This document shows positions 545-28,367 of a stretch of 33,333 bases of DNA, one piece after another. Location of the stretch: assembly GCA_018267535.1 (NCBI GenBank), contig JAFDYH010000033.1:21487-54819 (forward strand), in the 5' to 3' direction. Origin of the DNA: Bacteroidota bacterium (GTDB lineage Bacteria > Bacteroidota > Bacteroidia > Chitinophagales > Chitinophagaceae). Within the stretch, counting starts at the first letter, position 1. Each line of letters begins with the position of its first letter. The notes below the pieces were generated by a model. It saw only the letters and a list, made by a program, of their open reading frames with translations. It searched no databases and had not been told where the DNA came from. A program made the position numbers and the translations under genes.

Positions 545-1711
545 ATGAAAAGCAGGCAGCTTCTTGTCATACTTATCCTTTCCTTTGCTGCGCTTTCATT
601 CTATCTCGTTTCTGCAAAAAAAAACCAAACCCGCTCTTACTCATCTTTACTAAAAGAACTTCCTTCTTTTTTTTCAGATAGCCTCTATCTCTATCCAGCT
701 AATCCTTACAACGAAGCAAAAGCAGAGTTGGGCCGTTATTTATTTTATGATAGGAGGTTATCCTTTAATAAAACAAAATCCTGTGCCAGTTGTCACGATC
801 AGAAATTCAGTTTTACGGATGGATATAGAAGGTCAATCGGGGCTGCAGGTGATCTGCTCCAGCGCAATTCATCTCCATTAATCAATATTGTTTATAAAAA
901 ATACCTGACTGCTGCGGATTCATCTTTACATTATCCGGAGCAGCAAATAAACAACCCGATGTTTCATAATACACCAATTGAACTCGGATGGAAAGGACAT
1001 GAAGAAGAAATTTTAGACCGGATCAAAAACGATCAATTTTATAGAAGTCAGTTTAAAGAAGTGTTTGCTGATGCAGATAAAAGTGTGACAATAAAAAATA
1101 TTCAATACTGTATCGCTTCATTTATAAAATCTATTTTCTCTTATAACTCGCGGTTCGATCAGTTTTTTTATCAGAAACAGGATGTATTATCTGCATCCGA
1201 AAAAAAGGGGATGCAATTATTTTTTTCAGCTAAGCTGAATTGCAGTTCCTGTCATGGCGGTAATAATTTTGATAAGTCAATACTACAAGATGATAATGGA
1301 AAGCCGCTTATTTATTTTAATACAGGTTTGTATAATATCGGAGGCAAAGGTGATTATCCTGAACCCGATAAAGGGTTATACCAACAAACGGGTAACAGGT
1401 CTGATATGGGCCGGTATAGGATTCCGACTTTAAGAAATCTTGCATTTACTGCTCCCTATTATCATGATGGCAGCGCTGTTACCCTGGAAGAAGTTATAAG
1501 CAATTATGAAAATGGAGGTCGCCTGACAGCAAGAGGCTTGTTGAATGGAAATGGGTCAGCGAATCCTTATAAAAGCAATTTAATAAAAGGGTTTTTATTG
1601 ACTGGAGAAGAGGAAAAGGACCTGATCAGTTTTTTGTTAGCTCTTTCCGATTCATCAGTCCTGGTCAATAAAAAATATAGCAATCCATTCCGGTATGATG
1701 AAACTAAATAA
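545..1711 (+). CDS. MauG/CcpA-family di-heme c-type enzyme (cytochrome c peroxidase-like)
   Basis: A 388-residue periplasmic protein with an N-terminal signal or anchor segment (about residues 5-24). It carries two c-type heme sites, C80-A-S-C-H84 followed by FTDG, and C233-S-S-C-H237. The family signature PTLRN...APYYHDG..TLEEV is near the C-terminus. Classical bacterial cytochrome c peroxidases place a Met ligand of the high-potential heme just after this segment. Here, by eye, the position is Tyr321 in ISNYENGG, as in MauG, where Tyr294 ligates that heme. The family reduces H2O2 or, in MauG, makes a protein-derived quinone cofactor by long-range oxidation. The gene overlaps the next one by 17 bp, so the partner protein is the obvious candidate substrate (inference). 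Family assignment is secure; peroxidase versus cofactor-maturation role is open. Confidence 0.88.
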   Translation: MKSRQLLVILILSFAALSFYLVSAKKNQTRSYSSLLKELPSFFSDSLYLYPANPYNEAKAELGRYLFYDRRLSFNKTKSCASCHDQKFSFTDGYRRSIGAAGDLLQRNSSPLINIVYKKYLTAADSSLHYPEQQINNPMFHNTPIELGWKGHEEEILDRIKNDQFYRSQFKEVFADADKSVTIKNIQYCIASFIKSIFSYNSRFDQFFYQKQDVLSASEKKGMQLFFSAKLNCSSCHGGNNFDKSILQDDNGKPLIYFNTGLYNIGGKGDYPEPDKGLYQQTGNRSDMGRYRIPTLRNLAFTAPYYHDGSAVTLEEVISNYENGGRLTARGLLNGNGSANPYKSNLIKGFLLTGEEEKDLISFLLALSDSSVLVNKKYSNPFRYDETK

Positions 1712-3485
1712 CAGGTTTATATTCCTGAATATTTTGCTGCTTGTATTGTCAGGCATCGATTTATCTTGTAACAACGGTAACGGAACAGTTACGGAGAAAA
1801 GATTGGAAGGTTATCCGGAGGATGTTCTTAAATCAGTTTTGTTGTCGGCAGATAGTCTCCGGACATTTCCTTTTACAGAACAAAGGGCGGAAGAAATTAA
1901 AAAATCACTGCAGCAACCTACACCTGTATTGTTGTGTAAAGACAGCCTGAGCAATAATCAGCAATTGGCCCAGATTATTGCATTGAATGAACCGGAATTT
2001 ATTCACTATGTAAGGAATGAGGCGAATCTCCCTTTCCGCAATGAAATATTCGGAGTCTATCCCGCCAGGGAAAGTGATTTTGCAGGTGGAAATAAACCTG
2101 TTGATTTAAAAAATGTTTTCCGGGTTGAGATGTATAATTATGGATTAAATCTCAGCTCCATTGCTTTGATTGATATTAAGCAGGGAAAAGCACTCGCTGT
2201 AAACCATATTCCGCAAGCACAACCCGATATACCGGTTAATTTAAAAGACCTGGCCGTGCAGATTGCCATCAATTCACCGGAGGTGCAGCAGGCATTAGGC
2301 TATAAACCAAAAGACAGTACAGCTTTAATGCCAAACACGAAAACTTCACTTAATCGTACCCGATGTGAAAGAAGTCATCATCTTTGTGTGGCACCCACAT
2401 TTGTAAAAGAGGATAAAGCTCTTTGGGCTATTGTTGATTTAACCGATTTCAGACTTGTCGGTATCCGCTGGACGAATACAGGAACAACTGGTCCTGCAGC
2501 ACCAATAACGGAAAAGAAATTACAGGATGATAAAATTTCTTCCTGCTTTTGCGAACTGGAACAATCTTTAAGTAAAGATGGCTGGAATATGAAATACATG
2601 CTGACCAGCAGCGATGGGTTGAGAATATCGGATGTTACATTTAACAATCAGCCTGTATTAAGAAGTGCTAAACTGGTAGACTGGCATGTAAACTATAGTG
2701 GTACCGATGGCTTCGGTTACAGTGATGCGGTCGGTTGCCCTTATTTCAGCCAGGCGGCTGTAGTAGCATGGAGTGTACCGGAAGTAGCAGAATTGCAAAA
2801 TGACAGAAATGAAACAATCGGTTTTGCACTCGAACAAACTTTTCGCAGTGAAGGATGGCCTACACCCTGTAATTACAATTACAGGCAGCGTTACGAATTT
2901 TATAATGATGGGCGATTCAGGGTCGCTGCAGCGAGTATAGGACGTGGTTGTGGTAATGATGGTACATATCGCCCGGTATTCAGAATAGCATTAGCAGGAA
3001 ATACCAATAATTTTTATTCATGGAATAATAATAACTGGGATAACTGGACACAGGAAAAATGGAATGAGCAAACGGCGCAGACCGCCTATTCTCCTGAAGG
3101 ATATTTATATAAAACAACAGGAAGGGAGAATGGATATTTTATAGAACCTGGTAATGGACAATTCGGGGATGGGGGAAAAGGAGATTTTTCATTTGTGTAT
3201 GTTACAAAAAATGTTACCGGAAAAGATGAGGGTGAGTCCGACCTGGTTACAATAGGCCCCTGTTGTAATACAGATTACCACCAGGGGCCAGAGAAATTTA
3301 TTGAGCCGCAACCAGAGAATATTCAAAACTCTTCCTTGGTGATATGGTATGTTGCTCAATTAAAAAATAATGACCAGAAAGGAAATGAATATTGCTGGGC
3401 AGAAAGTGTGTTGCAAAATGGAGTGTATGTTACGAAAACATACCCTTGTTTTTGCGGGCCTTTGTTTATTCCTGTTAAAAAATAA
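1695..3485 (+). CDS. Copper amine oxidase-like lipoprotein lacking the copper ligands
   Basis: A 596-residue protein with a signal peptide ending at a plausible lipidation Cys (C25, context DLSC). Residues about 295-460 align by eye with the copper amine oxidase catalytic domain: a SSDGLRISDVTF strand (family REGLVL.DV), GFGYSDAVGCPYF, then C392-N393-Y394-N395-Y396 followed by YEFYNDGRFRV. This last part corresponds to the N-Y-[DE] topaquinone motif and the strand after it. Y394 is at the cofactor position. The HxH copper pair expected just downstream is replaced by T-Y-R-P (424-427), and the C-terminal segment SSLVIWYVAQLKNN lacks the third His. The protein is unusually rich in Cys, including CFC, CC and CFC clusters. 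It starts inside the upstream di-heme gene and ends on the start codon of the next. Alternative: an unrelated beta-rich lipoprotein; the alignment needs a profile search. Confidence 0.6.
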   Translation: MMKLNNRFIFLNILLLVLSGIDLSCNNGNGTVTEKRLEGYPEDVLKSVLLSADSLRTFPFTEQRAEEIKKSLQQPTPVLLCKDSLSNNQQLAQIIALNEPEFIHYVRNEANLPFRNEIFGVYPARESDFAGGNKPVDLKNVFRVEMYNYGLNLSSIALIDIKQGKALAVNHIPQAQPDIPVNLKDLAVQIAINSPEVQQALGYKPKDSTALMPNTKTSLNRTRCERSHHLCVAPTFVKEDKALWAIVDLTDFRLVGIRWTNTGTTGPAAPITEKKLQDDKISSCFCELEQSLSKDGWNMKYMLTSSDGLRISDVTFNNQPVLRSAKLVDWHVNYSGTDGFGYSDAVGCPYFSQAAVVAWSVPEVAELQNDRNETIGFALEQTFRSEGWPTPCNYNYRQRYEFYNDGRFRVAAASIGRGCGNDGTYRPVFRIALAGNTNNFYSWNNNNWDNWTQEKWNEQTAQTAYSPEGYLYKTTGRENGYFIEPGNGQFGDGGKGDFSFVYVTKNVTGKDEGESDLVTIGPCCNTDYHQGPEKFIEPQPENIQNSSLVIWYVAQLKNNDQKGNEYCWAESVLQNGVYVTKTYPCFCGPLFIPVKK

Positions 3486-4420
3486 TGATGAGATCCATCT
3501 ATATAGCTTTGATTATTTTTTTTCTTTTCATTTCCTGCAATGAGAAGCGGGTTGAATTCAGGACAAATAATTGTAAGGGTAGTCCTGTGTTTGTAAAACG
3601 AGTAGCCGGCTTTGAAATAGCCAGATCTTATTTCAGCACTTCAGAAATAAGAAAAATGGGATTAGTATTGGTAGAAAATCAAGGTACGGGTGAAACACCA
3701 TCACTCCGGTATTACCAGCATCCATCCTGGAAAATGGCTGGGTGGTTATCGCCGATTCAACTTGATCAGGCAGGGAACGTATATACAGCTCCGGCACCTT
3801 TTATTAATGTTTTGAACAACCCGCAACAAAAACAAAACACTATTTACAAAGTTGAGGCTGCCAGTGGTGAAATGAACGAGTTTTTCAATATCCCTCTTCC
3901 GGATTCTTTGAATGATAATAATCCATACGGTGTTTTAGGCCTGCTTTATTTCTGTGAAGGAAATGTTTTATATGCATCAACTGTAGCAGGTTCTGACCGC
4001 CATGTTATAAAAGGCGGTATTTATGCAATTGATCTGAAAGACAAAAAGATTATTGATCATTTGCCACAGGTGGATGCAATCGGAATGGGAATATCTTATG
4101 TTACAGGAGAACGAAAATTATATTTTGGAACCGGCCGGTCATCTGAAATATATTCTGTTTCAATTGACAAAAATGGAAAGTTTCTGAGTAAACCTGAACC
4201 TGTATTTTCTTTGGAAGGGTTAGGGCCAAGAGGAGATGACAAGGTACGCAGAATCAGGTCTGATCAGAATGGTAATTTACTGGTATACGGAATTGAGTTT
4301 AATTACAACCTAATAGCACCCAGGGAAAAGCCCGAGGCTCTGTATGAATTTTGGTATGATAACAATGAAAAAAAGTGGTGGTGCAAAACTATTAATAGTA
4401 AAACTACCAGTACTGAATAG
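3485..4420 (+). CDS. Lipoprotein, probable beta-propeller, third gene of the di-heme operon
   Basis: A 311-residue protein with a short signal peptide and a lipobox-like FISC (C18), so probably anchored in a membrane of the envelope. The body shows repeated blade-like strands: LSPIQLDQAGNVYTAP, NTIYKVEAASGEMNEF, GGIYAIDLKDKKIIDHL, SEIYSVSIDKNGKFLS and RSDQNGNLLVYGIEF. This pattern (I.Y..D.......G) is typical of NHL, SMP-30 or YVTN-type propellers, but no specific family or active site could be recognised. Its ATG shares one base with the stop codon of the amine oxidase-like gene, indicating translational coupling. It may dock or shield its operon partners (inference). Function unknown. Confidence 0.7.
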   Translation: MMRSIYIALIIFFLFISCNEKRVEFRTNNCKGSPVFVKRVAGFEIARSYFSTSEIRKMGLVLVENQGTGETPSLRYYQHPSWKMAGWLSPIQLDQAGNVYTAPAPFINVLNNPQQKQNTIYKVEAASGEMNEFFNIPLPDSLNDNNPYGVLGLLYFCEGNVLYASTVAGSDRHVIKGGIYAIDLKDKKIIDHLPQVDAIGMGISYVTGERKLYFGTGRSSEIYSVSIDKNGKFLSKPEPVFSLEGLGPRGDDKVRRIRSDQNGNLLVYGIEFNYNLIAPREKPEALYEFWYDNNEKKWWCKTINSKTTSTE

Positions 4421-4670: not shown

Positions 4671-7600
4671 ATGAAGACTCAATTAAACCAAATCCAATTA
4701 ATACTTTCTTCAGTATTAATTATCATTTCCCTAACAGCCGGTGCCCAGATTTCGGGTACAGTTTTCAGAGACATTAATAATGATGGTATTCAACAGTCCA
4801 CAAATCCGACTGAACCCGGGGAATATGGTGTTACCGTTAAAGCATACAATTCCGTAAATGCCTTATTGGGTACAGTGACTACGGATGCAAATGGCTATTA
4901 TTCCTTCAGTGCTGCACAGGCACCATCTGGTCTTGCCGTGCGTATTGAGTTTTCAATAAAATCAGGTGACCAACCTTCTAAGCGCATAGATGCAAACCAT
5001 ACCAATGTACAGTTTGTAGTAGCAGGATCTGCAATAAATACAAACTTTGCTGTTGCTGACAGAAAATGGTTTTCAGATAACAGTAATCCTTATGTAGCAA
5101 CTACAGCTTATACTAATGGTAATGCTCTTTCCAGTGGTTCAGGTACTGCCGGCGATAATGATAACCTCTATGTTTTTCCTTATGATTTATCAAATGATGG
5201 AGGAAACACACGCAGGGCAAAAAACAAATACCTGGGCGCTATATTCGGCCTTGCCTGGCAGAGGGAATCAAGAACACTGTTAATGGCGGCTTACCTGAAA
5301 GTACATGCCAGTTTCGGACCCAATGGTATCGGTGCTATTTACCAGGCACAAATAGATAAAAACGGGATACCTGCAACACCAACTTTATTAGTGGATGTTG
5401 CTTCAATAGGAATTAATGTAGGTACAGATCCGCGTTCCTCTACTCTTCCTGACATATCGAGCACACCCAATGCGGATCCGGGCGTTTTTGCAGAAGTTGG
5501 TAAAAGAGGAATAGGAGGTATTGAATTGTCTGTTGACGGCAGGGAACTTTACATTGTGAATATGTATCAAAAGAAATTACAACGGATAAATGTCGGTAAT
5601 CCTTTAAAATCATCTTTTAGTTCCTCTGATGTTACCGGAAGCTGGTCAATACCTGATCCTGGTTATTCAGGAACTCAATGGCACCCGATGGCCGTTGAAA
5701 TTCATAACGGTAAAATTTATGTAGGTGGTATTTCAACAAAGGAAACAACAACTGCACATAATATTGCTGATACAACTAATTTAAGAGGTACGGTATACGA
5801 GTTTAATCCTTCCACTTCAACTTTCACGACAGTTCTTACTTTTTCTCTTACTCACAGAAGAGGTTTTACAAACAGCGATTATCGTTATGAATTCAGAAAT
5901 AACTACTGGGCTGCATGGCAAAACAGTAGCGATATATCTTTAGGAGGGCCTTTGCGTACAGGTTTATTGGGAGCAACTACAGGAAGCAATGCTACCGGCA
6001 TTTATTATTCACAACCTATGCTTTGCGATATAGAGTTTGATGTAGACGGTTCTATGATCATGGGAATACGCGATCGCTTCGGTGACCAGGGAGGATATGC
6101 CAATTACTTTGAAACAGGTAATGTAGTTGGTGAAACCTATCGTACGCTTTCTACAGGCGAAGTACTGAAAGCTGGTAAAGCAGGAAATGTATGGATATTA
6201 GAGAATAACGGTTCTGTAACAAATAATGGAGTTACTACAACTACTGCAGGATTAGCTGATAATACACCTGCATTAACAGGTTCTTTTACCGGACTTACAG
6301 GTACACCGTGGGGTGGCCCGATAGGCCCGGGTGGCGGCTATTTCTACTATAACCAGAATTTTACAAAAACTGGTGTACCTGCACCATTTGGTTCAGCAGC
6401 TACAATAACAGCACACTATACAAAATCAAATGGAGGGATAGCCGTATATCCGGGATATAATGAAGTAATGATGTCAGCAATTGACCCGCTGAATAAAAGC
6501 TATACAAATGGTATAATCAGGAATTTTAATGATGGTGCCAATGCAGGTAATATGTCCGGTAGGATGGAGTTATTCAGTTCAAATGGTAGCGACCCTACCA
6601 ATTTCGGTAAAGCTGCTGCATTGGGTGATTTTGAATTATTATTGGATGCTGAAGCTATGGAAATTGGTAATAAAGTATGGGATGATGCGAATGCAAATGG
6701 TATACAGGATGCGACGGAAGCCGGGATACCAGGAGTAAAAGTTGTTTTAAGAAGCGCAGGGTCAGATGGAGTTTATGGCAATGGAGATGACCAGACCTGG
6801 ATAGTGACTACGGATTCAAATGGTAACTATTATTTCGATGCAACCATTGTTAATGATAACCGCCGGCCTTCATCGTGGCTGGGTGTAAGTGCTACTAATT
6901 CTGGTATACTGCCCGGCTTTGAATACAGGGTTGAAATAGACCTTTCACAAGTAACATTAACCGGCTATTCAGCAACAGTCATTAATGGTTCAGCAAACAG
7001 CGCAATAGATAATAATGGAGTAAAAAGCGGAACTAAGGTGATGTATACATTAAATCCGGGAGGTTCAACAGCCGCGAACAGTGTGTTTTCGAATGATTAT
7101 AATATCGATTTCGGATTTACAGGTATAGTATTACCCTTAAAGCAATTAAAAGTGGCTGCAGTATTAAACGAAAACAATGTAAATGTAAACTGGAATACAG
7201 TAGAAGAATTTGATGTAAAAAGATATTTTGCAGAGAGAAGTACAGATGGTAAAACTTTTACGGAAGCAGGTTCATTAAGTTCGAAAGGAAACGGAAGTTT
7301 CAGCTACCAGGTAACTGATGACATCAGCAATATCCAGGCAACAACAATCTATTACAGAATACGGGTGGAGGAACTGGATGGAAAAACCAGGTATTCCGAA
7401 GTAGTGAAAGTAAACCCAGGCAAAGCGATCAGCCTGCAGGTATCCCCCAACCCGTTTACAGACAATATAAACCTGCAGATAAAAAATGAAAAAAAGACAG
7501 AAGTGAAGATCCGGATCATGAACTCTGCAGGCCAGGTATTACAGAATACGACAATGATAATGCAGAGTGGTGTGAACAGTGTTACATTGAATAATTTTAC

Positions 7601-7679
7601 TAATTATTCAAAGGGAATGTATGTCATTGAAATAACCGCAGGGGAGCAATATGCAGTCAAAAGACTGATTAAACGATAA
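4671..7679 (+). CDS. Exported SdrD_B-domain protein with T9SS sorting domain
   Basis: 1002 residues. A signal peptide ends near GAQ (24-26). An SdrD B-like domain follows at once (about 27-130, with DINNDGIQQ and TDANGYYSF), a prealbumin-like Ca-binding fold. Residues about 130-660 form a long beta-rich region with propeller-like motifs (GGIELSVDGRELYIVNM, YEFNPSTSTFTTVL, CDIEFDVDGSMIMG). A second SdrD_B domain starts at about 664 (GNKVWDDANANGIQD, TTDSNGNYYFD). The C-terminal module (LPLKQL at about 821, ending VKRLIKR) carries SPNP at 925-928 and is a T9SS type A sorting domain, so the product is expected at the cell surface or released. It has its own 250-bp upstream region and a terminator behind it, suggesting a single-gene unit. 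The role is unknown; adhesion or matrix binding is a guess from the domains. Confidence 0.85.
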   Translation: MKTQLNQIQLILSSVLIIISLTAGAQISGTVFRDINNDGIQQSTNPTEPGEYGVTVKAYNSVNALLGTVTTDANGYYSFSAAQAPSGLAVRIEFSIKSGDQPSKRIDANHTNVQFVVAGSAINTNFAVADRKWFSDNSNPYVATTAYTNGNALSSGSGTAGDNDNLYVFPYDLSNDGGNTRRAKNKYLGAIFGLAWQRESRTLLMAAYLKVHASFGPNGIGAIYQAQIDKNGIPATPTLLVDVASIGINVGTDPRSSTLPDISSTPNADPGVFAEVGKRGIGGIELSVDGRELYIVNMYQKKLQRINVGNPLKSSFSSSDVTGSWSIPDPGYSGTQWHPMAVEIHNGKIYVGGISTKETTTAHNIADTTNLRGTVYEFNPSTSTFTTVLTFSLTHRRGFTNSDYRYEFRNNYWAAWQNSSDISLGGPLRTGLLGATTGSNATGIYYSQPMLCDIEFDVDGSMIMGIRDRFGDQGGYANYFETGNVVGETYRTLSTGEVLKAGKAGNVWILENNGSVTNNGVTTTTAGLADNTPALTGSFTGLTGTPWGGPIGPGGGYFYYNQNFTKTGVPAPFGSAATITAHYTKSNGGIAVYPGYNEVMMSAIDPLNKSYTNGIIRNFNDGANAGNMSGRMELFSSNGSDPTNFGKAAALGDFELLLDAEAMEIGNKVWDDANANGIQDATEAGIPGVKVVLRSAGSDGVYGNGDDQTWIVTTDSNGNYYFDATIVNDNRRPSSWLGVSATNSGILPGFEYRVEIDLSQVTLTGYSATVINGSANSAIDNNGVKSGTKVMYTLNPGGSTAANSVFSNDYNIDFGFTGIVLPLKQLKVAAVLNENNVNVNWNTVEEFDVKRYFAERSTDGKTFTEAGSLSSKGNGSFSYQVTDDISNIQATTIYYRIRVEELDGKTRYSEVVKVNPGKAISLQVSPNPFTDNINLQIKNEKKTEVKIRIMNSAGQVLQNTTMIMQSGVNSVTLNNFTNYSKGMYVIEITAGEQYAVKRLIKR

Positions 7680-16576: not shown

Positions 16577-19345
16577 ATGAAACAATTTTGTTTTATCCTG
16601 TTTCTTAGTTTATTTACTGGTACTATTTATTCGCAAACGCTCCCGGCAGGTTTTTCCATGTCTAATATTGCATCAGGCTGGAACCTGCCTGTAGGCACAG
16701 CTGCAAACAGTAATGGTCAAAAACTTTTTGTGTGGGAAAAGGATGGCCGTGTATATGTATGTAATTGGAATGCCGGATCGCAGCAATATGTAAAGCAAAC
16801 CACTCCTGTATTAGATATTTCCCCCGAAGTGGGTGGCTGGCGTGATTTTGGTTTAATCGGCTTTGCATTGGATCCAAACTTTGATTCAAATGGATTGATT
16901 TACCTGCTTTATGTTGTTGACCGGCATTACCTGATGAATTTCGGAACTGCATCCTATGATCCTGCAGCCAATGATTATTATAAAGCAACAATCGGAAGGG
17001 TTACAAGGTATAAAACAGTTGTTAATGGCAGCGGAACAATAACCGCGGATCTTAATACACGAACAATATTGCTAGGCGAAACAAAGGAAACAGGCATCCC
17101 TATTCTTTATGAGTCGCATGGGGTCGGTTCTTTAGCTTTTGCATCTGATGGGATGCTTTTAGTCTCAGCTGGTGATGGGGCATGTTATATCCATTCAGAT
17201 GTAGGCAGTGATGCCGATACTTATTTTGCCCAGGCACTTACGGATGGAATAATAAGACAAGAAGAAAATGTAGGGGCTCTTCGTTCTCAAATGATCAATA
17301 GCCTAAGTGGAAAAATATTGAGAATAAACCCATCAAATGGGGATGGTGTCAGCAGTAATCCGTTTTACGACCCTAACTATCCAAGAGCTGCAAAATCAAG
17401 AGTGTGGGCTTTGGGTTTAAGAAATCCTTTCCGTATGTCTGTGAAGCCCAATACGGGATCAACCGATCCGGCAACCGGCGACATAGGAGAAATTTATCTA
17501 GGAGATGTTGGATGGGATAACTATGAAGAAATAGATATTGCTGACAGAGCAGCCAGTAATTTCGGATGGCCGATTTTTGAAGGTAATACTTCTACTGCAG
17601 CTCATTTGGCTCCTTTCAGTGCGAATGTGGAAAATAAAGATGAGGTCAATCCCTTATTTGGTGGAGGCGGATGTGCCCAAAACTATTTTTACTTTAATAA
17701 CTTAATAAAACAAGCTACTGCTGATAATAATACTACAGTGTATAATCCCTGTAACAATGCTGTTGCAATTGTTAGCGGAAACAGTAACCGCTTCTTTCAT
17801 CATCGGCCCTTGCTTGACTGGGACCACAATTCAGCTACAGCCCGGGTAGGTACTTTTTCTGGAAATACAGCAACTGTTGCTGTAATTGGAACTCCGCAAT
17901 CGGGGGTGACGGGTACACCTTTTAGGGGTAACTGTGCAGTAGGGGGGTGTTGGTACACAGGTGATATGTTTCCTGCAGACTACAAGAACACCTATATTTT
18001 TGCTGATTATGGAGCACAATGGTTAAACCGTGCAACCATGCTCTCCAGTGTTTCGCTGAAACAAATTGATCCTTTTATTACAGGGTTTGGCGCTATCGTA
18101 CATATGATTCAGGATCCCCTGGATGGAAGCATGATAGCAATTGACCTTTTAACCAATTCAGTTAAGAAAATAAACTATGGTGGAGGACAGCCGCCTGTTG
18201 TGAAAATGACTTCCGATAAAATATTCGGATCTTCCGCGTTGGCGGTAACCTTTACAGGAAGCAGCTCTTATGATCCTGAAGGCGGAGCGCTAACATACCT
18301 GTGGAATTTTGGTGATGGAAATACGAGTACCGCAGCAGACCCGCCTGTGCATAGCTTTACTTCTGCAGCAAACGTGGCTAAAAAATTCGTGGTAACCCTT
18401 ACCGTTAAAGACAATATGAACTTGGCTTCAACAGACAGTATTATTATTTCAGTAAATAATACGCCACCTAAAGTTCAAATTATCAGCCCGAAGAAAAATT
18501 CAAGATATACAATTGGTTCGGATACAACTTATTCTTTACAGGCTAATGTAACAGATGACGAACAAACAGATGGACAGTTAACCTATGTATGGCAAACAAT
18601 TCTCCGGCATAATAATCACCAGCATGCAGAAACACCAGATACTAACCGGATCACTTCATCTCTTATTTCAAGAATAGGGTGTAATGGCGATATTTATTAT
18701 TATCTCTTTAAACTAAAAGTAACGGATGCTGCCGGTCTTTCAACAGAAGATTCATCGAAGATATTTCCACTTTGCCCCGGTGATGTAATTCTACCGGTAA
18801 CCCTAACTTCTTTTAGTGTAAATACACAAAATGGTATTAACAATATAAAATGGACAACAGAATCTGAAATCAATAGCAAGAGCTTTATACTGGAACGAAG
18901 TATTAATGGAACAGACTTCCAGGTTATTAACCAGCAACCGGCAAAGAATATTCCGGGTTCACAGCAATACTTCTACCCGGATAATACACATTCAGGGGGT
19001 ATAAATTACTACAGGTTGAAAATGGTAGATATCAACGGATCTTTTACCTATTCAAAAACGATAAAAGTATTTAATGGAAGTGATGCAGATTTTAGTCTCA
19101 GGATAACCCCCAACCCTGTATTTAAAGATTTTACTTTATCTACTGCATACCCTGAAAACGGACCGGTAACGATCCGTATTACAGACATAACCGGTAAAAT
19201 AGTAAAACAGATAAGTGACAATGTAAGTAAGGGGTATGTTACTATGCAGATTTATCAACTGGATAAATTGAAACCTGCAACTTATTTTGTTGAGGTAATA
19301 CAGAAAGATTATAAGCGGAATACGAAGTTTGTTAAAGTAGATTAG
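16577..19345 (+). CDS. T9SS-exported GSDH-type (PQQ sugar dehydrogenase-like) protein with PKD domain
   Basis: 922 residues. The signal peptide ends near IYSQ. Residues about 25-530 form a six-bladed GSDH/HHIP-like propeller: GLIGFALDPNFDSNGLIYLLYV, H181 in ESHGVGSLAFASDGMLLVSAGDG (position of the catalytic His of soluble glucose dehydrogenase), SGKILRINPSNGDG, R282 in ALGLRNPFRMSV, GEIYLGDVGWDNYEEI and SNFGWPIFEG. Then come a PKD domain (about 539-635; SSYDPEGGALTYLWNFGDGN), a second Ig-like region (636-735), the Fn3-like module from LPVTLTSF (about 739) and a T9SS type A domain from TPNP (844). It should oxidise a sugar or aldose at the cell surface if it binds PQQ. No pqq genes are in the window, so cofactor binding or supply is unproven. 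Single-gene unit. Confidence 0.85.
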   Translation: MKQFCFILFLSLFTGTIYSQTLPAGFSMSNIASGWNLPVGTAANSNGQKLFVWEKDGRVYVCNWNAGSQQYVKQTTPVLDISPEVGGWRDFGLIGFALDPNFDSNGLIYLLYVVDRHYLMNFGTASYDPAANDYYKATIGRVTRYKTVVNGSGTITADLNTRTILLGETKETGIPILYESHGVGSLAFASDGMLLVSAGDGACYIHSDVGSDADTYFAQALTDGIIRQEENVGALRSQMINSLSGKILRINPSNGDGVSSNPFYDPNYPRAAKSRVWALGLRNPFRMSVKPNTGSTDPATGDIGEIYLGDVGWDNYEEIDIADRAASNFGWPIFEGNTSTAAHLAPFSANVENKDEVNPLFGGGGCAQNYFYFNNLIKQATADNNTTVYNPCNNAVAIVSGNSNRFFHHRPLLDWDHNSATARVGTFSGNTATVAVIGTPQSGVTGTPFRGNCAVGGCWYTGDMFPADYKNTYIFADYGAQWLNRATMLSSVSLKQIDPFITGFGAIVHMIQDPLDGSMIAIDLLTNSVKKINYGGGQPPVVKMTSDKIFGSSALAVTFTGSSSYDPEGGALTYLWNFGDGNTSTAADPPVHSFTSAANVAKKFVVTLTVKDNMNLASTDSIIISVNNTPPKVQIISPKKNSRYTIGSDTTYSLQANVTDDEQTDGQLTYVWQTILRHNNHQHAETPDTNRITSSLISRIGCNGDIYYYLFKLKVTDAAGLSTEDSSKIFPLCPGDVILPVTLTSFSVNTQNGINNIKWTTESEINSKSFILERSINGTDFQVINQQPAKNIPGSQQYFYPDNTHSGGINYYRLKMVDINGSFTYSKTIKVFNGSDADFSLRITPNPVFKDFTLSTAYPENGPVTIRITDITGKIVKQISDNVSKGYVTMQIYQLDKLKPATYFVEVIQKDYKRNTKFVKVD

Positions 19346-21023: not shown

Positions 21024-23744
21024 ATGAAAAAATCGCTACTGTTATTGATAACTGGATTTCTACTGTCAGTTACAGTTTTTTCGCAAACCAACATTATAGG
21101 CACCCGTATGAATGAAGTGTTCCAGGAAACAATTATTCATGGAACAGAGGTTGCTAATATTGGCGACCCCGTACCGGCAGGCAACCTCAATAATCCATGG
21201 GAGATTACTTACGGCCCCGATCATTTTTTGTGGATTACCGAAGCAAAAGCCTACAAAGTAAGAAGGATGGATCCTGCTACAGGTGCAGTTACAACTATTC
21301 TTGATCTCAGCCCCGGTGCATCTGGATATCTTACATCTTCCGAGCATACTATTTTTAATCGTGAAAACTGGACAAACAGCGGATCTGTGCCCTGGCCACA
21401 GGGAGGTATGATGGGCCTTGCTATCCACCCGGATTTTATGAATTCATCCAGCCCCAAAAAATATGTGTATATCGGATACGTGCATGATCAGAATACGGTG
21501 AACACAGACGGCTCTGGTCAGTTTTATACAAACTATCTTGTACGCTTTACTTATAACGCTGCTACAAATAAACTCGAATCGCCGGTTGCCCTTTGCGATA
21601 CATTGCCCGGGAGTAAGGATCACAATTCAGGAAGAATAATTATTGCACCTGAAGGAGGAATTGATTACTTATACTATGCGGAAGGCGATATGGGTGCGGG
21701 ACAATTTGAAAACCTGACCCGCCCGATTAAAGCACAGAACTCATCTTCATACGAAGGAAAAATATTACGCTTTAACCTGGAAGATGATGGAGATGCAGGC
21801 GCCTATGATAAATGGATACCCGATGGGACAGGTATTGCAGGTAATCCATTCAACGGGGCGAAGCAAAATGCAGTATGGGCAACGGGAATGAGAAACAACC
21901 AGGGGTTTGCCTATGATCCCGTTAATGATATACTCTATGGATGTTCGCATGGGCCTTTCAGTGATGATGAATTGAATATTTTACAGCGCGGAAAAAATTA
22001 CGGACATCCCCTGGTCGTAGGGTACAGCGCTGATGGTAATTACAATGGGGCTAAAGTCGGCCCTTCCGGAGGATCACCACCTCTGATCCCTTCTGTAAAT
22101 GGTGAGCAAAATAATGCTGCGGCTATTGGTGCCAGTTATAAAGACCCTTTATATGCATTTTATCCGGCGCCAAGAGGAAATACCAGTACACCATGGACAA
22201 TACAATACATCTATACAAATCAAAACTATACGGGTTCTCCTGGCCCTACCGGGCTCGCCCAAAATGTAAACTCACATTGGTCTTCCGATGCCCCATCCGG
22301 AATGGCGTTTTATGGAGGCACTTATATTCCCGGATGGAAAAACTCATTGGTAATGGCCTCTCTTAAAAAAGGAAAACTATTTCGTTTGAAATTAGATGAT
22401 GCGGGCACCAGTGTATTACCGACACCATTAGGATCTGCAAGCCCGGCCAACGACACTGTTGGTATATTCTTTTCTCAAAACCGTTTTCGCGATCTTGCTT
22501 TTTCGCCAGGCGGGGATACCATATTTGCGGCTATTGATAAAGATGGTACCACCTCGGGGCCAACGGCAGGAGCAGGGGCTATCAATAGCAAATGCCCTGG
22601 TTGCATTAAGCGTTTTGTTTTTCTGGGATATAATGATGCTGCCGGTAAGAGTTCAATACCTGATGAAATACCTGTGACATTAGGAGTTGCCAATACCTGT
22701 ACCAATGGAACGACAGTAACTGTAGGTAATGATAATAATAACCTGTGGGTTCCTATCACAGGCCCTGATGGAAATATATTGGCAGAAATCTTTCCTAATG
22801 GTAATAATCTTGGAACAATCACTTCTTCTTTTTATACAAACTCGGGTTCAATAAGGCAGGATGGAACAGGCCTCAGATACCTTGACAGGAATATTACAAT
22901 TACTCCAACGAACCAGCCAACACTGCCTGCCGGTAATCCATCAGTGAAAATCAGGCTTTATCTTACCAATGCTGAGTACATGGCCTTGGACGTAAATCCA
23001 AACAGTGGTGTGAGTAGTGTCAATGATTTGCGGATCCGGAAAAATAATGATCCTTGCGGCTCTTCACTTACAGGCAGTACGTTAAATATTACCCCTACTG
23101 CTGAAGTGCATGGATCATCAGGGTATGTGCTGCAGGCAAACATCGGTTCATTCTCTACTTTTTATATTGGCGGCACTACAGTGATATTGCCATTGAAACT
23201 ATTGTTATTTAAAGGATCAATACAGGATAACACAGCTTTATTGCAATGGAAAACAAGCAGCGAGGTAAATACTTCGCATTTCGAAGTAGAAAGAAGCTTG
23301 AATGGCGAAGCCTATGAAAAAATCGGAACGGTAGCTGCCGGTGGTATTACTACTTCTGACGCTGATTATTATTTCAGGGATATGAATGCCTGTAATATGC
23401 CGGCAACTTTGTTGTATTACAGGTTGAAAATGGTAGATAAAGATGGTTCCTATACTTATTCGGATGTAGAGACTATTTCAATACCATACGTACCAGGTAG
23501 GGTTACTATATTTCCTAACCCCGCCAATAACGAAACGAGAATTACAATTTCGTCGAATACTAACGGTACAGTACAATTGAAAATAGTGGATAATGAAGGG
23601 CGAACTGTAATGCAAAATACTGCATCATTAAAGAAAGGGAATAATAGTATGCTGATTTATATGAACAAGTTGCCTGCCGGCATGTATTATATTACTGTCT
23701 CCGGAGCAGGTATTAATCACCATTCAAAATTGCAAAAATTGTAA
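21024..23744 (+). CDS. T9SS-exported PQQ-dependent sugar dehydrogenase-like protein (GSDH family)
   Basis: 906 residues. The signal peptide ends near VFSQ (residue 21). Residues about 45-540 form a GSDH propeller close to soluble glucose dehydrogenase: NPWEITYGPDHFLWITE, GGMMGLAIHPDF, H200 in KDHNSGRIIIAPEGG (catalytic base position), GKILRFNLEDDG, R290 in ATGMRNNQGFAYDP, and GPFSDDELNILQRGKNYGHP (310-329), which closely follows the Ca/PQQ-site segment GP.SDDE.N....G.NYG of that enzyme. Residues about 550-718 form a further beta domain (VKIRLYLTNAEYMALDV). The Fn3-like module begins at LPLKLL (722) and the T9SS type A domain at FPNP (830-833). It probably oxidises sugars or related alcohols at the cell surface using PQQ. 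It is a distant paralogue of the 16577 protein, and the active-site segments are better kept here. Confidence 0.88.
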   Translation: MKKSLLLLITGFLLSVTVFSQTNIIGTRMNEVFQETIIHGTEVANIGDPVPAGNLNNPWEITYGPDHFLWITEAKAYKVRRMDPATGAVTTILDLSPGASGYLTSSEHTIFNRENWTNSGSVPWPQGGMMGLAIHPDFMNSSSPKKYVYIGYVHDQNTVNTDGSGQFYTNYLVRFTYNAATNKLESPVALCDTLPGSKDHNSGRIIIAPEGGIDYLYYAEGDMGAGQFENLTRPIKAQNSSSYEGKILRFNLEDDGDAGAYDKWIPDGTGIAGNPFNGAKQNAVWATGMRNNQGFAYDPVNDILYGCSHGPFSDDELNILQRGKNYGHPLVVGYSADGNYNGAKVGPSGGSPPLIPSVNGEQNNAAAIGASYKDPLYAFYPAPRGNTSTPWTIQYIYTNQNYTGSPGPTGLAQNVNSHWSSDAPSGMAFYGGTYIPGWKNSLVMASLKKGKLFRLKLDDAGTSVLPTPLGSASPANDTVGIFFSQNRFRDLAFSPGGDTIFAAIDKDGTTSGPTAGAGAINSKCPGCIKRFVFLGYNDAAGKSSIPDEIPVTLGVANTCTNGTTVTVGNDNNNLWVPITGPDGNILAEIFPNGNNLGTITSSFYTNSGSIRQDGTGLRYLDRNITITPTNQPTLPAGNPSVKIRLYLTNAEYMALDVNPNSGVSSVNDLRIRKNNDPCGSSLTGSTLNITPTAEVHGSSGYVLQANIGSFSTFYIGGTTVILPLKLLLFKGSIQDNTALLQWKTSSEVNTSHFEVERSLNGEAYEKIGTVAAGGITTSDADYYFRDMNACNMPATLLYYRLKMVDKDGSYTYSDVETISIPYVPGRVTIFPNPANNETRITISSNTNGTVQLKIVDNEGRTVMQNTASLKKGNNSMLIYMNKLPAGMYYITVSGAGINHHSKLQKL

Positions 23745-23800: not shown

Positions 23801-25648
23801 TTACCTAGTAAAATGATTTGAATAAACAGTATCTGTAAGCGCTTTCATGAAACTGATAATATCCCCTATCTCTTTTTTAGACAGATTTAATTTATCAAAA
23901 GGCAATGATTGATTTGCGGGCGCAATCTTTAAACCTTTTCCTCCGCCATTATTGTAAAATTCCATCACTTCTTCCAGCGTTGTATATACGCCATTATGCA
24001 TGTATGGAGCTGTTAGTTCAATGTTGCGTAATGTGGGGGTTTTAAAAGCGAATTTATGAATCACCGATGTTGTAAAGCCAGCTTTTCCAATATCCGTGTC
24101 AAGAATTGCGTGGGTTTTATCTTTTGTTTGTGGCACACCCAGTATTTCCGATTCGGTTTCAGTAAATACCGGTGGAACTAATCCATTGAATAAAGGAATG
24201 AAATGACAGGTGGCACATTTTGCTTTTCCTGCAAAGAGATTAAATCCGTTTTTCTCTGATGCGGTTAATGCTTTTACATTACCACGCATGTATTTATCAA
24301 ACCTGGAATTTAAAGAAATGAGAGAACGGACATATGAAGAGATGGCGTTTGCAATATTGAACTCTATAACAGCATTTTTTTCTTCTGGATATGCTTCTTT
24401 GAACAACGTGGAATAAAAGGAGTTCGCTTTTAGGTGTGCAACGCTCTGCTTTAATGAGCCTTTCATTTCTTTTTCATTGTGTACTACTTCATCCAATTGA
24501 TTTTCCAATAAGCTGGTACGGCTATCCCAGAATAATTTTGTTTGAAATACGGAGTTTAGTAGTGTTGGCGTATTGCGGGATAGATAAGTCGTATCATCAA
24601 TAGATAGCGCGGTTTTCAATCCATCTGTAAATGCTTTTTCAGGTTTATGGCAGCTGGCGCAGCTTCTCTTTTTATTACTAGAAAGTATAGAGTCGTAAAA
24701 TAATCGCCTTCCAAGGGCAACTCTTTTTTCAGTAATATCATAAGGTATTCCGGGGGAAAAAAAATTCGGGTTGAATGCATTTTCAGAAAAAATATTTTGA
24801 GAAGAGTTGTTAACAGGGGTGTTTCCCTGGGGGATTATCAGGTTTAATTTTTTTCCTGTATAGGTTAATGAGTTTGCGAGCGGATTTATAAATGAAGTAA
24901 TAAACTCCAACCGGTTAAAACTATTAAAATCTTTATGATGCGTTAAATATTGGATACAGCTCACTATTTGGGCATTCAGTTTTGCATATAGCGAAGGCTC
25001 TACTTTGTCAATGTCTTCTTTAAAAGTAGTAAGCACTTGTTTTATTCCAGCGATACTTTCTGAAGCTTCCTGAATTGAATGAAATGCGACCGGTGAGTCA
25101 AACCCTGTAATACCCATGGTGGTTATAGTGATGAGAGAAGACCTTAATGAGGCGAAAACAAGCTCCTTTCTGAATTTGTAAACGCGGTCCGTTTCGGTTT
25201 CTATCCGGCCGATATACTTCAACATGATATCAGCCTGTGCCATTATTTTCTTATGATCTGGAGCTCTCCCGGCGTATAGTTCATCTTCTATTACCTGGAA
25301 CCCCGATGGCTTAATAACAAGGTCCGGCACATCGGATTCAATACGGTTCAGGTTAGGGCCATTCAGGAATTTAATTTCATAAGGGTTAAAAAATTCAATT
25401 AATACCGACATTTTTTTATAGAAATTTCTACACGTTTCGAATTGCTTTTGCAACTGGACTAATGGTTTTTTCTGTGCGCAGAGTAGCCTTAGGGTTGTTA
25501 TACTTTGTCTGAGTGCAGATAGCTTTTTAGCATAATAAGTATTCAGTTCTTCGTTAAAATTTTCCTTGGGTGGGATATAATAACTATATAACAGGAATGT
25601 GCATGCCAAAATGGCAAAAATCGAAGTCTTACGTGGTAGTTTTTCCAT
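23801..25648 (-). CDS. Imelysin-like domain fused to a MauG/CcpA-family di-heme c-type enzyme
   Basis: The ATG at 25648 is preferred to the in-frame TTG at 25678; it gives 615 residues with signal peptide or anchor PRKTSIFAILACTFLLYSYYI. Residues about 25-285 are all-helical. G116-F-Q-V-I-E121 followed by DELYAG resembles the imelysin/EfeO GxHxxE motif, with Gln in place of His. Residues about 305-610 are a complete di-heme domain: C330-A-S-C-H334 followed by FTDG, C478-A-T-C-H482, and PTLRNIELTAPYMHNG..TLEEV. Tyr565 in MEFYNNGG sits at the MauG-type axial-ligand position. Imelysins are periplasmic proteins tied to iron uptake and often encoded beside such di-heme enzymes, so a fusion fits an iron- or peroxide-linked role (inference). 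It is divergent from the phosphatase gene, 112 bp apart. Confidence 0.8.
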   Translation of the reverse strand: MEKLPRKTSIFAILACTFLLYSYYIPPKENFNEELNTYYAKKLSALRQSITTLRLLCAQKKPLVQLQKQFETCRNFYKKMSVLIEFFNPYEIKFLNGPNLNRIESDVPDLVIKPSGFQVIEDELYAGRAPDHKKIMAQADIMLKYIGRIETETDRVYKFRKELVFASLRSSLITITTMGITGFDSPVAFHSIQEASESIAGIKQVLTTFKEDIDKVEPSLYAKLNAQIVSCIQYLTHHKDFNSFNRLEFITSFINPLANSLTYTGKKLNLIIPQGNTPVNNSSQNIFSENAFNPNFFSPGIPYDITEKRVALGRRLFYDSILSSNKKRSCASCHKPEKAFTDGLKTALSIDDTTYLSRNTPTLLNSVFQTKLFWDSRTSLLENQLDEVVHNEKEMKGSLKQSVAHLKANSFYSTLFKEAYPEEKNAVIEFNIANAISSYVRSLISLNSRFDKYMRGNVKALTASEKNGFNLFAGKAKCATCHFIPLFNGLVPPVFTETESEILGVPQTKDKTHAILDTDIGKAGFTTSVIHKFAFKTPTLRNIELTAPYMHNGVYTTLEEVMEFYNNGGGKGLKIAPANQSLPFDKLNLSKKEIGDIISFMKALTDTVYSNHFTR

Positions 25649-25760
25649 GTTTAAGCGATTATTATTACTTTTTTGCAACTTATTCGCATTTGAACTTTGT
25701 TGGCTTGAAATAAAATTAAATATTAGTAGTTAAATATTAAGTAAAAACCATCATCCTAAC

Positions 25761-28367
25761 ATGGAAAAACCAGCCATCTGCCTTTATAGGATAGCTCTAT
25801 TGCTATTTTTCAGTTTTGTTTTTAATGAAACAGTTTTTTCTCAAGTTACTCTTGTTCCCTATGGTAGCTCATGGAAATATCTTGATAATGGTACTAACCA
25901 GGGAACCGCGTGGCAGGGTACAAGCTTTAACGATGCGTCATGGGCATCAGGTAATGCCGAGCTAGGGTATGGTGATGGGGATGAGGCTACTATTGTTTCC
26001 TATGGTGGCAATGCAAGTACTAAATATATTACCACCTATTTTCGTAAAACTATCACCATAGCTGATCCAACAGTATATTCCAGTTTTACTCTAAATGTGG
26101 AAAGAGATGACGGTTGTATAGTTTATATAAATGGTACAGAAATAACTCCAAGGGAAAGTAATATGCCAGCATCTGCTATTACTTATACTACTCCTGCTGT
26201 TGCTGCGATTGAAGATGCCGTCGTAAGTTACACTATACCGAATACCTCATTTGTTGCGGGGAACAATGTTATTGCAATAGAGGTGCATCAGGCAAATGTA
26301 ACCAGTTCAGATATTTCGTTCAATGCGCAATTGATAGGAAACGACCTTTTTACAGCCTCACTTACGAGAGGCCCCTATCTGCAAATGGGTAGTCAAACTG
26401 CCATTACTATACGATGGAGAACTTCCACTAGTTCCAATTCAAGAGTTGAAATAGGAACATCATTCGGTACATATACTACTGTATTTTCGGATGCTTCAAG
26501 TGTTACCGAACATATTATCCGGGTAACTGGCCTGACAGCAGATACCAAATACTGGTATCGTATCGGTAATAGCTCCAATATGGGGGCATCAGATCCAGAT
26601 AAATTTTTTACAACCGTGCCACCAGCCAATACAACAAGAAAAGTGAGAATAGTAGCCTTTGGTGATTGTGGCCGGGGAAACACTACCTACCAGGACCAGA
26701 ACCTAGCCAATTACATCAGCTATCTTTCTACAAATAATATTGATGCACCAGATGCATGGTTACTTTTAGGGGATAATGCATATTCAACCGGTTCTGATGC
26801 TGAGTATACCAATAACTTTTTTGGAATATATGGAAACAATATTTTAAAAAATCATAAACTTTATTCTGCACCAGGAAACCATGATTATGCTAATAATACC
26901 GCGAACAAGGCATCAAGGACAATGCCTTACTACAGCAATTTTACTACTCCACAGAATGCTGAATGCGGTGGCATAGCTTCTAATAAACCTAATTATTATT
27001 CTTATGATATTGGAAATATCCATTTTCTTTCTTTAGACTCATGGGGTACTGAGTCAGATGCATCACATATGGGCCTTGCCATTAGTGCAATTAAAACGTG
27101 GGTTACATCAGACCTTGCCGCCAATACAAAAAAATGGGTGATTGCTTACTGGCACCATGGTGGTTATACAAAAGGAAGCCACGATTCGGATGGAGAATCA
27201 GAGCTGGTAAATATCCGCCAGAATTTCGCGACGTTTCTTGAGTCCAAAGGAGTGGATATGATCATCTGCGGTCATAGTCACGTATATGAAAGAAGTTATT
27301 TGTTGCACAATTTTACGGGGGCATGGAATACTTTTAATGCGGCTACCCATGCAGTAAGTACTTCCAGCGCTAATTATGCGAGCAGTTCCACATGTCCTTA
27401 TGTTTACAATACAACAGCAACAAATCATGGTACAGTGTATTTAACTGCTGGTTCAACCGGGGCCAGCACAGGAAGTACATTTGCTAATTTCGGAGGGTAT
27501 GCATTTCCATATTCTGTTAATGACGGAGGTGTATTTTATTTTGAAGTTGATGACAATAGGCTTGACGCAAAAATGCTTCGCAGGAACGGAACGGTGTTTG
27601 ACAATTTCACTATTATTAAAGATGTTAATAAAACAAATTCTCAAACGGTGACCGTAGGAACACCTGTTACGATGAAAGCATCATGGCCAGGAAATTATAG
27701 CTGGAGTACTGCTGCAACAACGCGTTCTATAACTGTTACACCGTCTGCACCGGGTACAACAAACTATACCGTAACAGATAATTTCGGTTGTATTACTGAC
27801 CAATTCTCCATTACGGCTTCAGCTATATTGCCGGTAAGTCTTGTTGATTACAATGCTATTTTAAAAGGTGGAAAAGTGGACCTTAACTGGACTACATCTT
27901 CTGAAAATAATAGTAAATATTTTACAGTAGAGCGTACACAAAATCAGGCAAGCTTTGAAACAGTTGGCCGGATAAAAGCAGCCGGGCAGTCAATATCAGA
28001 TAAACATTATGCATTAACAGATTTTCATCCGCAAACCGGGGTTAGTTATTACCGGCTTTCACAAACTGATGTAGATGGGAAAACAGTGTTTTATGATTTA
28101 AAAAAGATCATAAACAATATGCCTGTATTTACGGCAAGACAGTTGACAGGTGAAAATGGAATCCTTGTATTGCAGATTAATTCACCGAAAACGGACAGGG
28201 TCAAGATTAGGGTATTTGATCTTTCAGGAAAAGAAATCTGGAAAGAAGATCTGATTATAAACGCTGGTGCAATTCAGAAAGCAATTATATTACGCAGAGG
28301 CGCTTATGTGTGGGAAGTGAGGAATAGTCAGGGCGAAATGGTTTCAAAAATCGGCATTTTGAAATAA
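25761..28367 (+). CDS. Purple acid phosphatase-like metallophosphoesterase exported by T9SS
   Basis: 868 residues. The signal peptide ends at FSQ (28). Residues about 29-193 are a jelly-roll-like domain (SSWKYLDNG, FNDASWASGNAELGYGDGDE, YFRKTI, VERDDGCIVYINGTEI, GNNVIAIEVHQ). Residues about 200-285 are the Fn3-like N-domain of purple acid phosphatases (RGPYLQMGSQTAITIRWRT, GLTADTKYWYRIG). The catalytic domain has D302 (FGDCG), D338-N339 (LLGDNAY), N373-H374-D375 (GNHD), H465/H466 (YWHHGG) and H505-S-H507 (GHSHVYER): a full metal-ligand set, so it should hydrolyse phosphoesters outside the cell. A T9SS-like module starts at LPVSLVDY (690), but the C-terminal domain has INSPKTDR where the others have PNP. 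The next gene is 19 bp downstream without a terminator. Confidence 0.88.
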   Translation: MEKPAICLYRIALLLFFSFVFNETVFSQVTLVPYGSSWKYLDNGTNQGTAWQGTSFNDASWASGNAELGYGDGDEATIVSYGGNASTKYITTYFRKTITIADPTVYSSFTLNVERDDGCIVYINGTEITPRESNMPASAITYTTPAVAAIEDAVVSYTIPNTSFVAGNNVIAIEVHQANVTSSDISFNAQLIGNDLFTASLTRGPYLQMGSQTAITIRWRTSTSSNSRVEIGTSFGTYTTVFSDASSVTEHIIRVTGLTADTKYWYRIGNSSNMGASDPDKFFTTVPPANTTRKVRIVAFGDCGRGNTTYQDQNLANYISYLSTNNIDAPDAWLLLGDNAYSTGSDAEYTNNFFGIYGNNILKNHKLYSAPGNHDYANNTANKASRTMPYYSNFTTPQNAECGGIASNKPNYYSYDIGNIHFLSLDSWGTESDASHMGLAISAIKTWVTSDLAANTKKWVIAYWHHGGYTKGSHDSDGESELVNIRQNFATFLESKGVDMIICGHSHVYERSYLLHNFTGAWNTFNAATHAVSTSSANYASSSTCPYVYNTTATNHGTVYLTAGSTGASTGSTFANFGGYAFPYSVNDGGVFYFEVDDNRLDAKMLRRNGTVFDNFTIIKDVNKTNSQTVTVGTPVTMKASWPGNYSWSTAATTRSITVTPSAPGTTNYTVTDNFGCITDQFSITASAILPVSLVDYNAILKGGKVDLNWTTSSENNSKYFTVERTQNQASFETVGRIKAAGQSISDKHYALTDFHPQTGVSYYRLSQTDVDGKTVFYDLKKIINNMPVFTARQLTGENGILVLQINSPKTDRVKIRVFDLSGKEIWKEDLIINAGAIQKAIILRRGAYVWEVRNSQGEMVSKIGILK

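Follow-up and report, generated by a model that had tools for sequence, protein, structure and literature searches.

An MbnH-family di-heme enzyme paired with a copper-less amine oxidase-fold lipoprotein: a probable new type of protein maturation system

Here we present an analysis of a three-gene locus in a 33,333-nucleotide stretch of DNA from a Bacteroidota bacterium of the family Chitinophagaceae (assembly GCA_018267535.1, contig JAFDYH010000033.1, positions 21,487 to 54,819 of the forward strand; the whole stretch is called the window below). The first open reading frame, ORF1, encodes a di-heme c-type enzyme of the MbnH family, ORF2 encodes a lipoprotein with the fold of the copper amine oxidases (CAOs) from which the copper ligands have been lost, and ORF3 encodes a beta-propeller lipoprotein. 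The pairing of a di-heme enzyme with the CAO-fold protein was seen in two phyla, Bacteroidota and Chloroflexota, and a separate clade of di-heme proteins is confined to genomes that carry ORF2. That the locus is a dedicated module of two to four genes is well supported, and ORF1 and ORF2 probably represent a new type of system in which one enzyme chemically finishes another protein. As the likeliest mechanism, with a probability of about 0.45, we propose that ORF1 would oxidatively modify ORF2, a reading based on how the MbnH family acts on its partner.

The three genes lie on the same strand, with ORF1 and ORF2 overlapping by 17 bp and ORF2 and ORF3 by 1 bp, just as described in a prediction made earlier from the letters of this DNA (the original prediction). 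Translational coupling of the three genes is suggested by these overlaps alone.

A di-heme enzyme of the MbnH family

In the original prediction ORF1 was called MauG-like, having two CxxCH heme-binding sites and a tyrosine at the position of the unusual axial tyrosine of MauG. Both sites, CASCH and CSSCH, were located, as was the tyrosine; the phmmer alignment of ORF1 with MauG runs to residue 322 of the query and 295 of the chain, which places Y321 at Y294. The likeness to MauG extends to the two hemes and this axial position, but not to the family, which is that of MbnH, whose known partner is MbnP: ORF1 exceeded the TIGR04039 (MbnH) cut-off (394.8 vs 362.85 bits), and its best match in the PDB was the di-heme enzyme MbnH (6e1c, E 1.2e-78). 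A true MauG could be rejected, the score against the TIGR03791 equivalog model being 109.4 bits for a cut-off of 443.85. No mau genes were present among the window proteins scanned, the other contigs not having been searched for them. The gene adjacent to ORF1 is ORF2, and not a gene for MbnP.

Phylogenetic analysis of 111 di-heme proteins gave a tree in which a single clade (support 99) comprised 55 ORF2-linked and 5 unlinked proteins, and all five of the latter came from genomes with ORF2 elsewhere. The sister of this clade consists of 6e1c MbnH and two MbnP-linked relatives, and other MbnP-linked di-heme proteins of Bacteroidota are placed apart. The simplest reading of this topology is that an MbnH exchanged MbnP for the CAO-fold protein as its partner.

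An amine oxidase fold without a copper site

Plain sequence searches did not reveal the nature of ORF2: searches of PDB sequences returned noise only, hhalign against Escherichia coli TynA alone was not significant, and the match to PF01179, a family also matched by 48 of 50 ORF2 relatives, was marginal (27.2 bits vs a cut-off of 27.0). The CAO fold was established by fold search and by comparison with a profile built from several CAOs. The AlphaFold2 model of ORF2 (predicted local distance difference test score, pLDDT, 82.9; predicted template modelling score, pTM, 0.79) retrieved CAOs as every one of its top 50 Foldseek matches in the PDB (best E 4.5e-18, probability 1.00), and hhalign against a profile of real Chloroflexota CAOs together with TynA gave a global probability of 97.6. 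Global template modelling (TM) scores between the model and CAOs were modest (0.43-0.49), as expected because ORF2 is a multi-domain protein with lost loops. The resemblance of this 596-residue protein to CAOs, which the original prediction had left open to refutation by Pfam and structure comparison, is thereby confirmed.

All three copper ligands of TynA are gone throughout the family, in agreement with the earlier description of ORF2 as copper-less. In the alignments with TynA and the CAO profile, the stretch bearing the HxH ligands is deleted and the distal histidine is absent from ORF2 and all relatives aligned, and this holds for members from both Bacteroidota and Chloroflexota, down to divergent relatives that score only about half as high. 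ORF2 could thus be rejected as a functional copper amine oxidase. The tyrosine originally proposed to occupy the topaquinone (TPQ) position is Y394, which lies in the motif C-N-Y-x-Y, aligns with the TPQ precursor of TynA, and is invariant in every group compared, whether or not a di-heme gene is present. Y334, also invariant, aligns with the active-site tyrosine of TynA. Candidates for the catalytic aspartate fall in the D338/D344 region, which aligns ambiguously and has low model confidence.

The richness of ORF2 in tyrosine, tryptophan and cysteine, likewise noted before, corresponds to 26, 12 and 14 residues, respectively. Essentially all groups compared kept the histidines H229 and H331, ten cysteines, and the aromatic residues Y147, W244, W297, Y334, W388, Y394, Y396, Y425, W551 and W568. 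The identity of ORF2 as an MbnP was also considered and rejected, with no match of ORF2 to TIGR04052 in NCBIfam.

Genetic linkage of the di-heme and CAO-fold genes

Scanning 84,980 species genomes yielded 202 ORF2 relatives, 80 of which were kept for locus counts; many of these 80 loci are broken by contig ends. The di-heme gene, ORF2 and the propeller gene occurred together in 47 loci, ORF2 and the propeller gene in 23, the di-heme gene and ORF2 in 5, and ORF2 alone in 5, so that an ORF3-type gene stood beside ORF2 in 70/80. In Bacteroidota, a linked di-heme gene lay directly upstream on the same strand in 51 of 52 cases. At the 30 loci with full flanks from outside the Chloroflexota, the di-heme gene was present in 27 and the propeller gene likewise in 27. 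The order of the genes varies (di-heme/ORF2/propeller or propeller/di-heme/ORF2) and the gene set is retained.

The co-occurrence also held at the level of whole genomes. The five carriers of ORF2 among 198 Bacteroidota genomes were exactly the five with the best TIGR04039 matches. Among 149 relatives, where the best-scoring loci alone were classified, an ORF2-type di-heme protein was found in 6/6 genomes with ORF2, scoring 372-613 bits against a profile of that type; the other best matches reached at most 247 bits and were mostly beside MbnP, and none was of ORF2 type outside ORF2 genomes. A naive estimate puts the probability of this agreement by chance below 1e-9, uncorrected for shared ancestry. 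Linkage of the genes, which the original prediction had offered as a test that could refute it, is therefore strong and far beyond chance. No match was found in the plasmid records searched.

ORF2 was also found in 26 of 350 Chloroflexota genomes, at least 10 of which have a di-heme gene within a few kilobases, in varied arrangements. Each of these genomes has just one or two di-heme genes in all, and the di-heme proteins associated with ORF2 come in part from more divergent groups. A separate family of CAO-like proteins of about 400 residues was encountered in Herpetosiphon and near relatives (L220-L224, e.g. G161:C1:3926216-3927265); with 133-139 bits to PF01179, it takes a place between the ORF2 family and the true CAOs.

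The propeller lipoprotein and neighbouring genes

The proposal that ORF3 is a propeller-like lipoprotein was upheld by modelling (Table 1). Foldseek matches of the model were weak and generic, of the lactonase/paraoxonase propeller type (best E 1.6e-7). As the constant companion of the CAO-fold protein, ORF3 probably belongs with it to one surface complex, as a subunit. Downstream lies the gene for a large surface protein exported by the type IX secretion system (T9SS), possibly a fourth cluster member: its central domain (residues 131-650, about 500 residues) was found at 39 fetched loci of ORF2 relatives in Bacteroidota and Chloroflexota. No sequence relatives of this protein were found in the PDB.

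Table 1. Genes and residues of the locus, in window coordinates
Feature	Position	Strand	Description
ORF1	545-1711	+	MbnH-family di-heme c-type enzyme, 388 aa (amino acids); predicted exported (N-terminal signal/anchor)
First heme-binding CxxCH of ORF1 (CASCH, aa 80-84)	782-796	+	Kept in 64/64 linked homologues
Second heme-binding CxxCH of ORF1 (CSSCH, aa 233-237)	1241-1255	+	Kept in 64/64 linked homologues
Tyr321 of ORF1	1505-1507	+	At MauG axial Tyr294 position; Tyr kept by partners in Bacteroidota (43/55) and Chloroflexota (9/9)
ORF2	1695-3485	+	CAO-fold lipoprotein without copper ligands, 596 aa; lipobox Cys25
His229 of ORF2	2379-2381	+	One of two invariant histidines (conservation across groups)
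Cys284 of ORF2	2544-2546	+	Extra Cys nearly confined to Bacteroidota members; 97% of di-heme-positive Bacteroidota set, 0/17 of comparison set
His331 of ORF2	2685-2687	+	Second invariant histidine (conservation across groups)
Tyr394 of ORF2	2874-2876	+	Aligned with TPQ-precursor Tyr (alignments with TynA and CAO profile)
ORF3	3485-4420	+	Beta-propeller lipoprotein, 311 aa; AlphaFold2 pLDDT 91.4, pTM 0.88
SdrD_B surface protein	4671-7679	+	Large, T9SS-exported (PF17210 and PF18962); frequent in cluster

Elsewhere in the window, a 625-residue CCP_MauG di-heme protein (23801-25678, - strand) is divergent from a purple-acid-phosphatase-like protein (25761-28367, + strand; PF00149 and PF16656), a pair that resembles BthA-phosA of Burkholderia (PMC6405878), here in Bacteroidota. 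Long di-heme proteins of this kind (about 600-650 residues) recur in many Bacteroidota. Two further T9SS-exported proteins (16577-19345 and 21024-23744, both + strand) have a propeller domain of the glucose/sorbosone dehydrogenase type (PF07995).

Maturation of ORF2 and alternative explanations

MbnH turns a tryptophan of its partner MbnP into kynurenine. By analogy, the exported ORF1 enzyme, activated by hydrogen peroxide (or by O2 and electrons), would draw electrons at long range from an aromatic residue in the CAO-fold lipoprotein and change it permanently; the product could be a quinone, a crosslink, or a kynurenine of the kind known from MopE and CorA. The altered residue might then act as a cofactor or bind a metal, within a pocket that lacks the copper histidines and has Tyr394, His229 and His331, in which case the operon would encode a dedicated maturation pair together with a structural partner, the propeller.

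Several observations weigh against such a maturation. The axial tyrosine is replaced (by Phe, Ser or Asn) or absent in 12 of the 55 ORF2-linked di-heme partners of Bacteroidota, and the inter-heme tryptophan is an alanine in this genome and seven others; since both positions are variable, MauG-like electron hopping may vary among partners. Moreover, ORF2-ORF3 occurs without an MbnH or any CCP_MauG protein in Herpetosiphon (the complete genome of H. aurantiacus among them) and in some other genomes, so that oxidation by a di-heme enzyme cannot be needed by all members of the ORF2 family. The ORF2 of these di-heme-free genomes has kept all of the invariant Tyr, Trp, His and Cys residues, and therefore no residue shows the signature expected of dependence on the di-heme enzyme. 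In a column comparison across groups, Cys284 was the best discriminating position and, besides it, no residue was found to be lost in di-heme-free lineages. Cys284 follows the di-heme gene within Bacteroidota only, however, and because it is absent from di-heme-bearing Chloroflexota it was rejected as the general target of modification. The ORF2-ORF3 pair is a broader core than the set that contains the di-heme gene. At three di-heme-unlinked Chloroflexota loci, no substitute oxidative enzyme beside ORF2 was evident from the first residues of the neighbouring proteins, for which no profile search was made.

In the main rival explanation, the di-heme protein serves as a redox partner or peroxidase, removing hydrogen peroxide or carrying electrons for a CAO-fold/propeller complex that performs a surface reaction or itself makes hydrogen peroxide, and ORF2 is left unaltered. 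It would account for the survival of the ORF2-ORF3 core without the di-heme gene, for the want of a residue signature that follows this gene, and for the 12 partners without the axial tyrosine, which in MauG suppresses ordinary peroxidase behaviour. We nevertheless judge it rather unlikely: a dedicated MbnH-type clade, sister to a partner-modifying enzyme and co-inherited with ORF2, goes beyond what a generic peroxidase would need, the tyrosine is retained in most partners (43 of 55, and 9 of 9 in Chloroflexota), and most members would have no copper for peroxide production of the CAO type. Likewise rather unlikely is a narrower form of the maturation proposal, in which the MbnH-type enzyme would furnish the copper-less CAO fold with a redox cofactor derived from the protein itself, perhaps at the topaquinone tyrosine, and so replace self-processing by copper; the Herpetosiphon-type members would then represent an enzyme-independent state.

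A different role for the same oxidation is as part of a surface copper binder resembling MbnP/MbnH and MopE/SACCP, with a putative site made of H229, H331 and an aromatic residue oxidised by ORF1, the fold being an amine oxidase relic. The copper sites of MopE and CorA are built from two histidines and a kynurenine, and a di-heme protein is co-transcribed with them (PMC3912023); relatives of MbnH have been linked to copper (PMC3621798); ORF2 has exactly two invariant histidines, several invariant tryptophans and the location of a lipoprotein. Nevertheless, the clusters contained no recognisable copper genes (SCO, Cu ATPase, methanobactin), and Herpetosiphon retains the residues without having the enzyme, so that we regard a copper-binding role as unlikely. 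The least probable of these explanations is that ORF2 is a pseudo-enzyme, its fold serving as a scaffold for binding or adhesion together with the propeller and the SdrD_B protein, and its association with the di-heme gene reflecting shared regulation or a shared location in the envelope. The lost copper ligands, the ten invariant cysteines, which suggest a rigid, disulfide-stapled structure, and the frequency of a surface-exported neighbour would all suit a scaffold, but a scaffold has no need of Y394, Y334 and the other invariant residues of the active-site region, and the linkage to a di-heme gene recurs in two phyla.

Implications and relation to known systems

A protein substrate is known for just a handful of the di-heme MauG-type enzymes, most members of the family being unassigned. 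With these findings, a whole di-heme sub-clade gains one specific candidate partner that is always present and is folded like the self-processing quinoenzymes, minus their copper site. What non-MauG di-heme enzymes oxidise thus becomes directly testable, with Herpetosiphon as a natural control without the enzyme; the ORF2-linked di-heme proteins that lack the axial tyrosine (L068, L071, L076 (Dyadobacter), L089, L131-L133, L084, L098) form a natural series for probing the role of that ligand. If the proposed maturation of ORF2 is true, it would show a quinoenzyme scaffold outliving its metal. We found no earlier description of a CAO-fold partner for MbnH or another di-heme enzyme in the open-licence literature, a scope outside which most subscription journals lie. 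Constant pairings of di-heme enzymes with other partners are already known, namely MauG/methylamine dehydrogenase (MADH), MbnH/MbnP, SACCP/MopE, mauG in the mtoX operon, and BthA/phosphatase.

The closest of these by family is MbnH/MbnP (TIGR04039/TIGR04052), which shares with ORF1-ORF2 the di-heme family and the pairing of two genes with an exported partner, the ORF1 clade being sister to true MbnH; unlike MbnH, ORF1 belongs to a distinct di-heme clade and has a CAO-fold partner unrelated to MbnP. The same genome also carries a separate MbnH-like/MbnP-like pair on contig C154 (G000, locus L017; 2174-3259 and 3265-3999, both - strand), whose MbnP-like gene is the only TIGR04052 match of the genome, at 42.9 bits and below the cut-off. 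In MauG and MADH, where the product is tryptophan tryptophylquinone, two c-type hemes and the axial tyrosine position are again found and a propeller is among the partners, the heavy chain of MADH being a beta-propeller; ORF1, however, scores far below the MauG equivalog cut-off, and ORF2 is not a MauA protein. With the copper amine oxidases (PF01179), ORF2 shares the fold over its whole length and the TPQ-position tyrosine in its N-Y-x-Y context, and differs from them in having no copper-ligand histidines, ten family-specific invariant cysteines, a lipoprotein anchor, and the loss of several loops.

MopE/SACCP and CorA/CorB offer a further parallel, in that a surface protein is co-transcribed with a di-heme protein of the CCP/MauG type; the di-heme proteins have been proposed to oxidise a tryptophan and so make the kynurenine at a two-histidine copper site (PMC3912023, PMC3621798). 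No relation in fold to ORF2 was detected, its top 50 Foldseek matches all being CAOs. Finally, in the mtoX-SCO1-mauG operon of methanethiol oxidase and in BthA-phosA, di-heme proteins are, as here, constantly paired with a partner other than MADH (PMC5739008, PMC6405878), but the partners are an SBP56 propeller and a purple acid phosphatase, respectively, and the di-heme proteins belong to other subfamilies.

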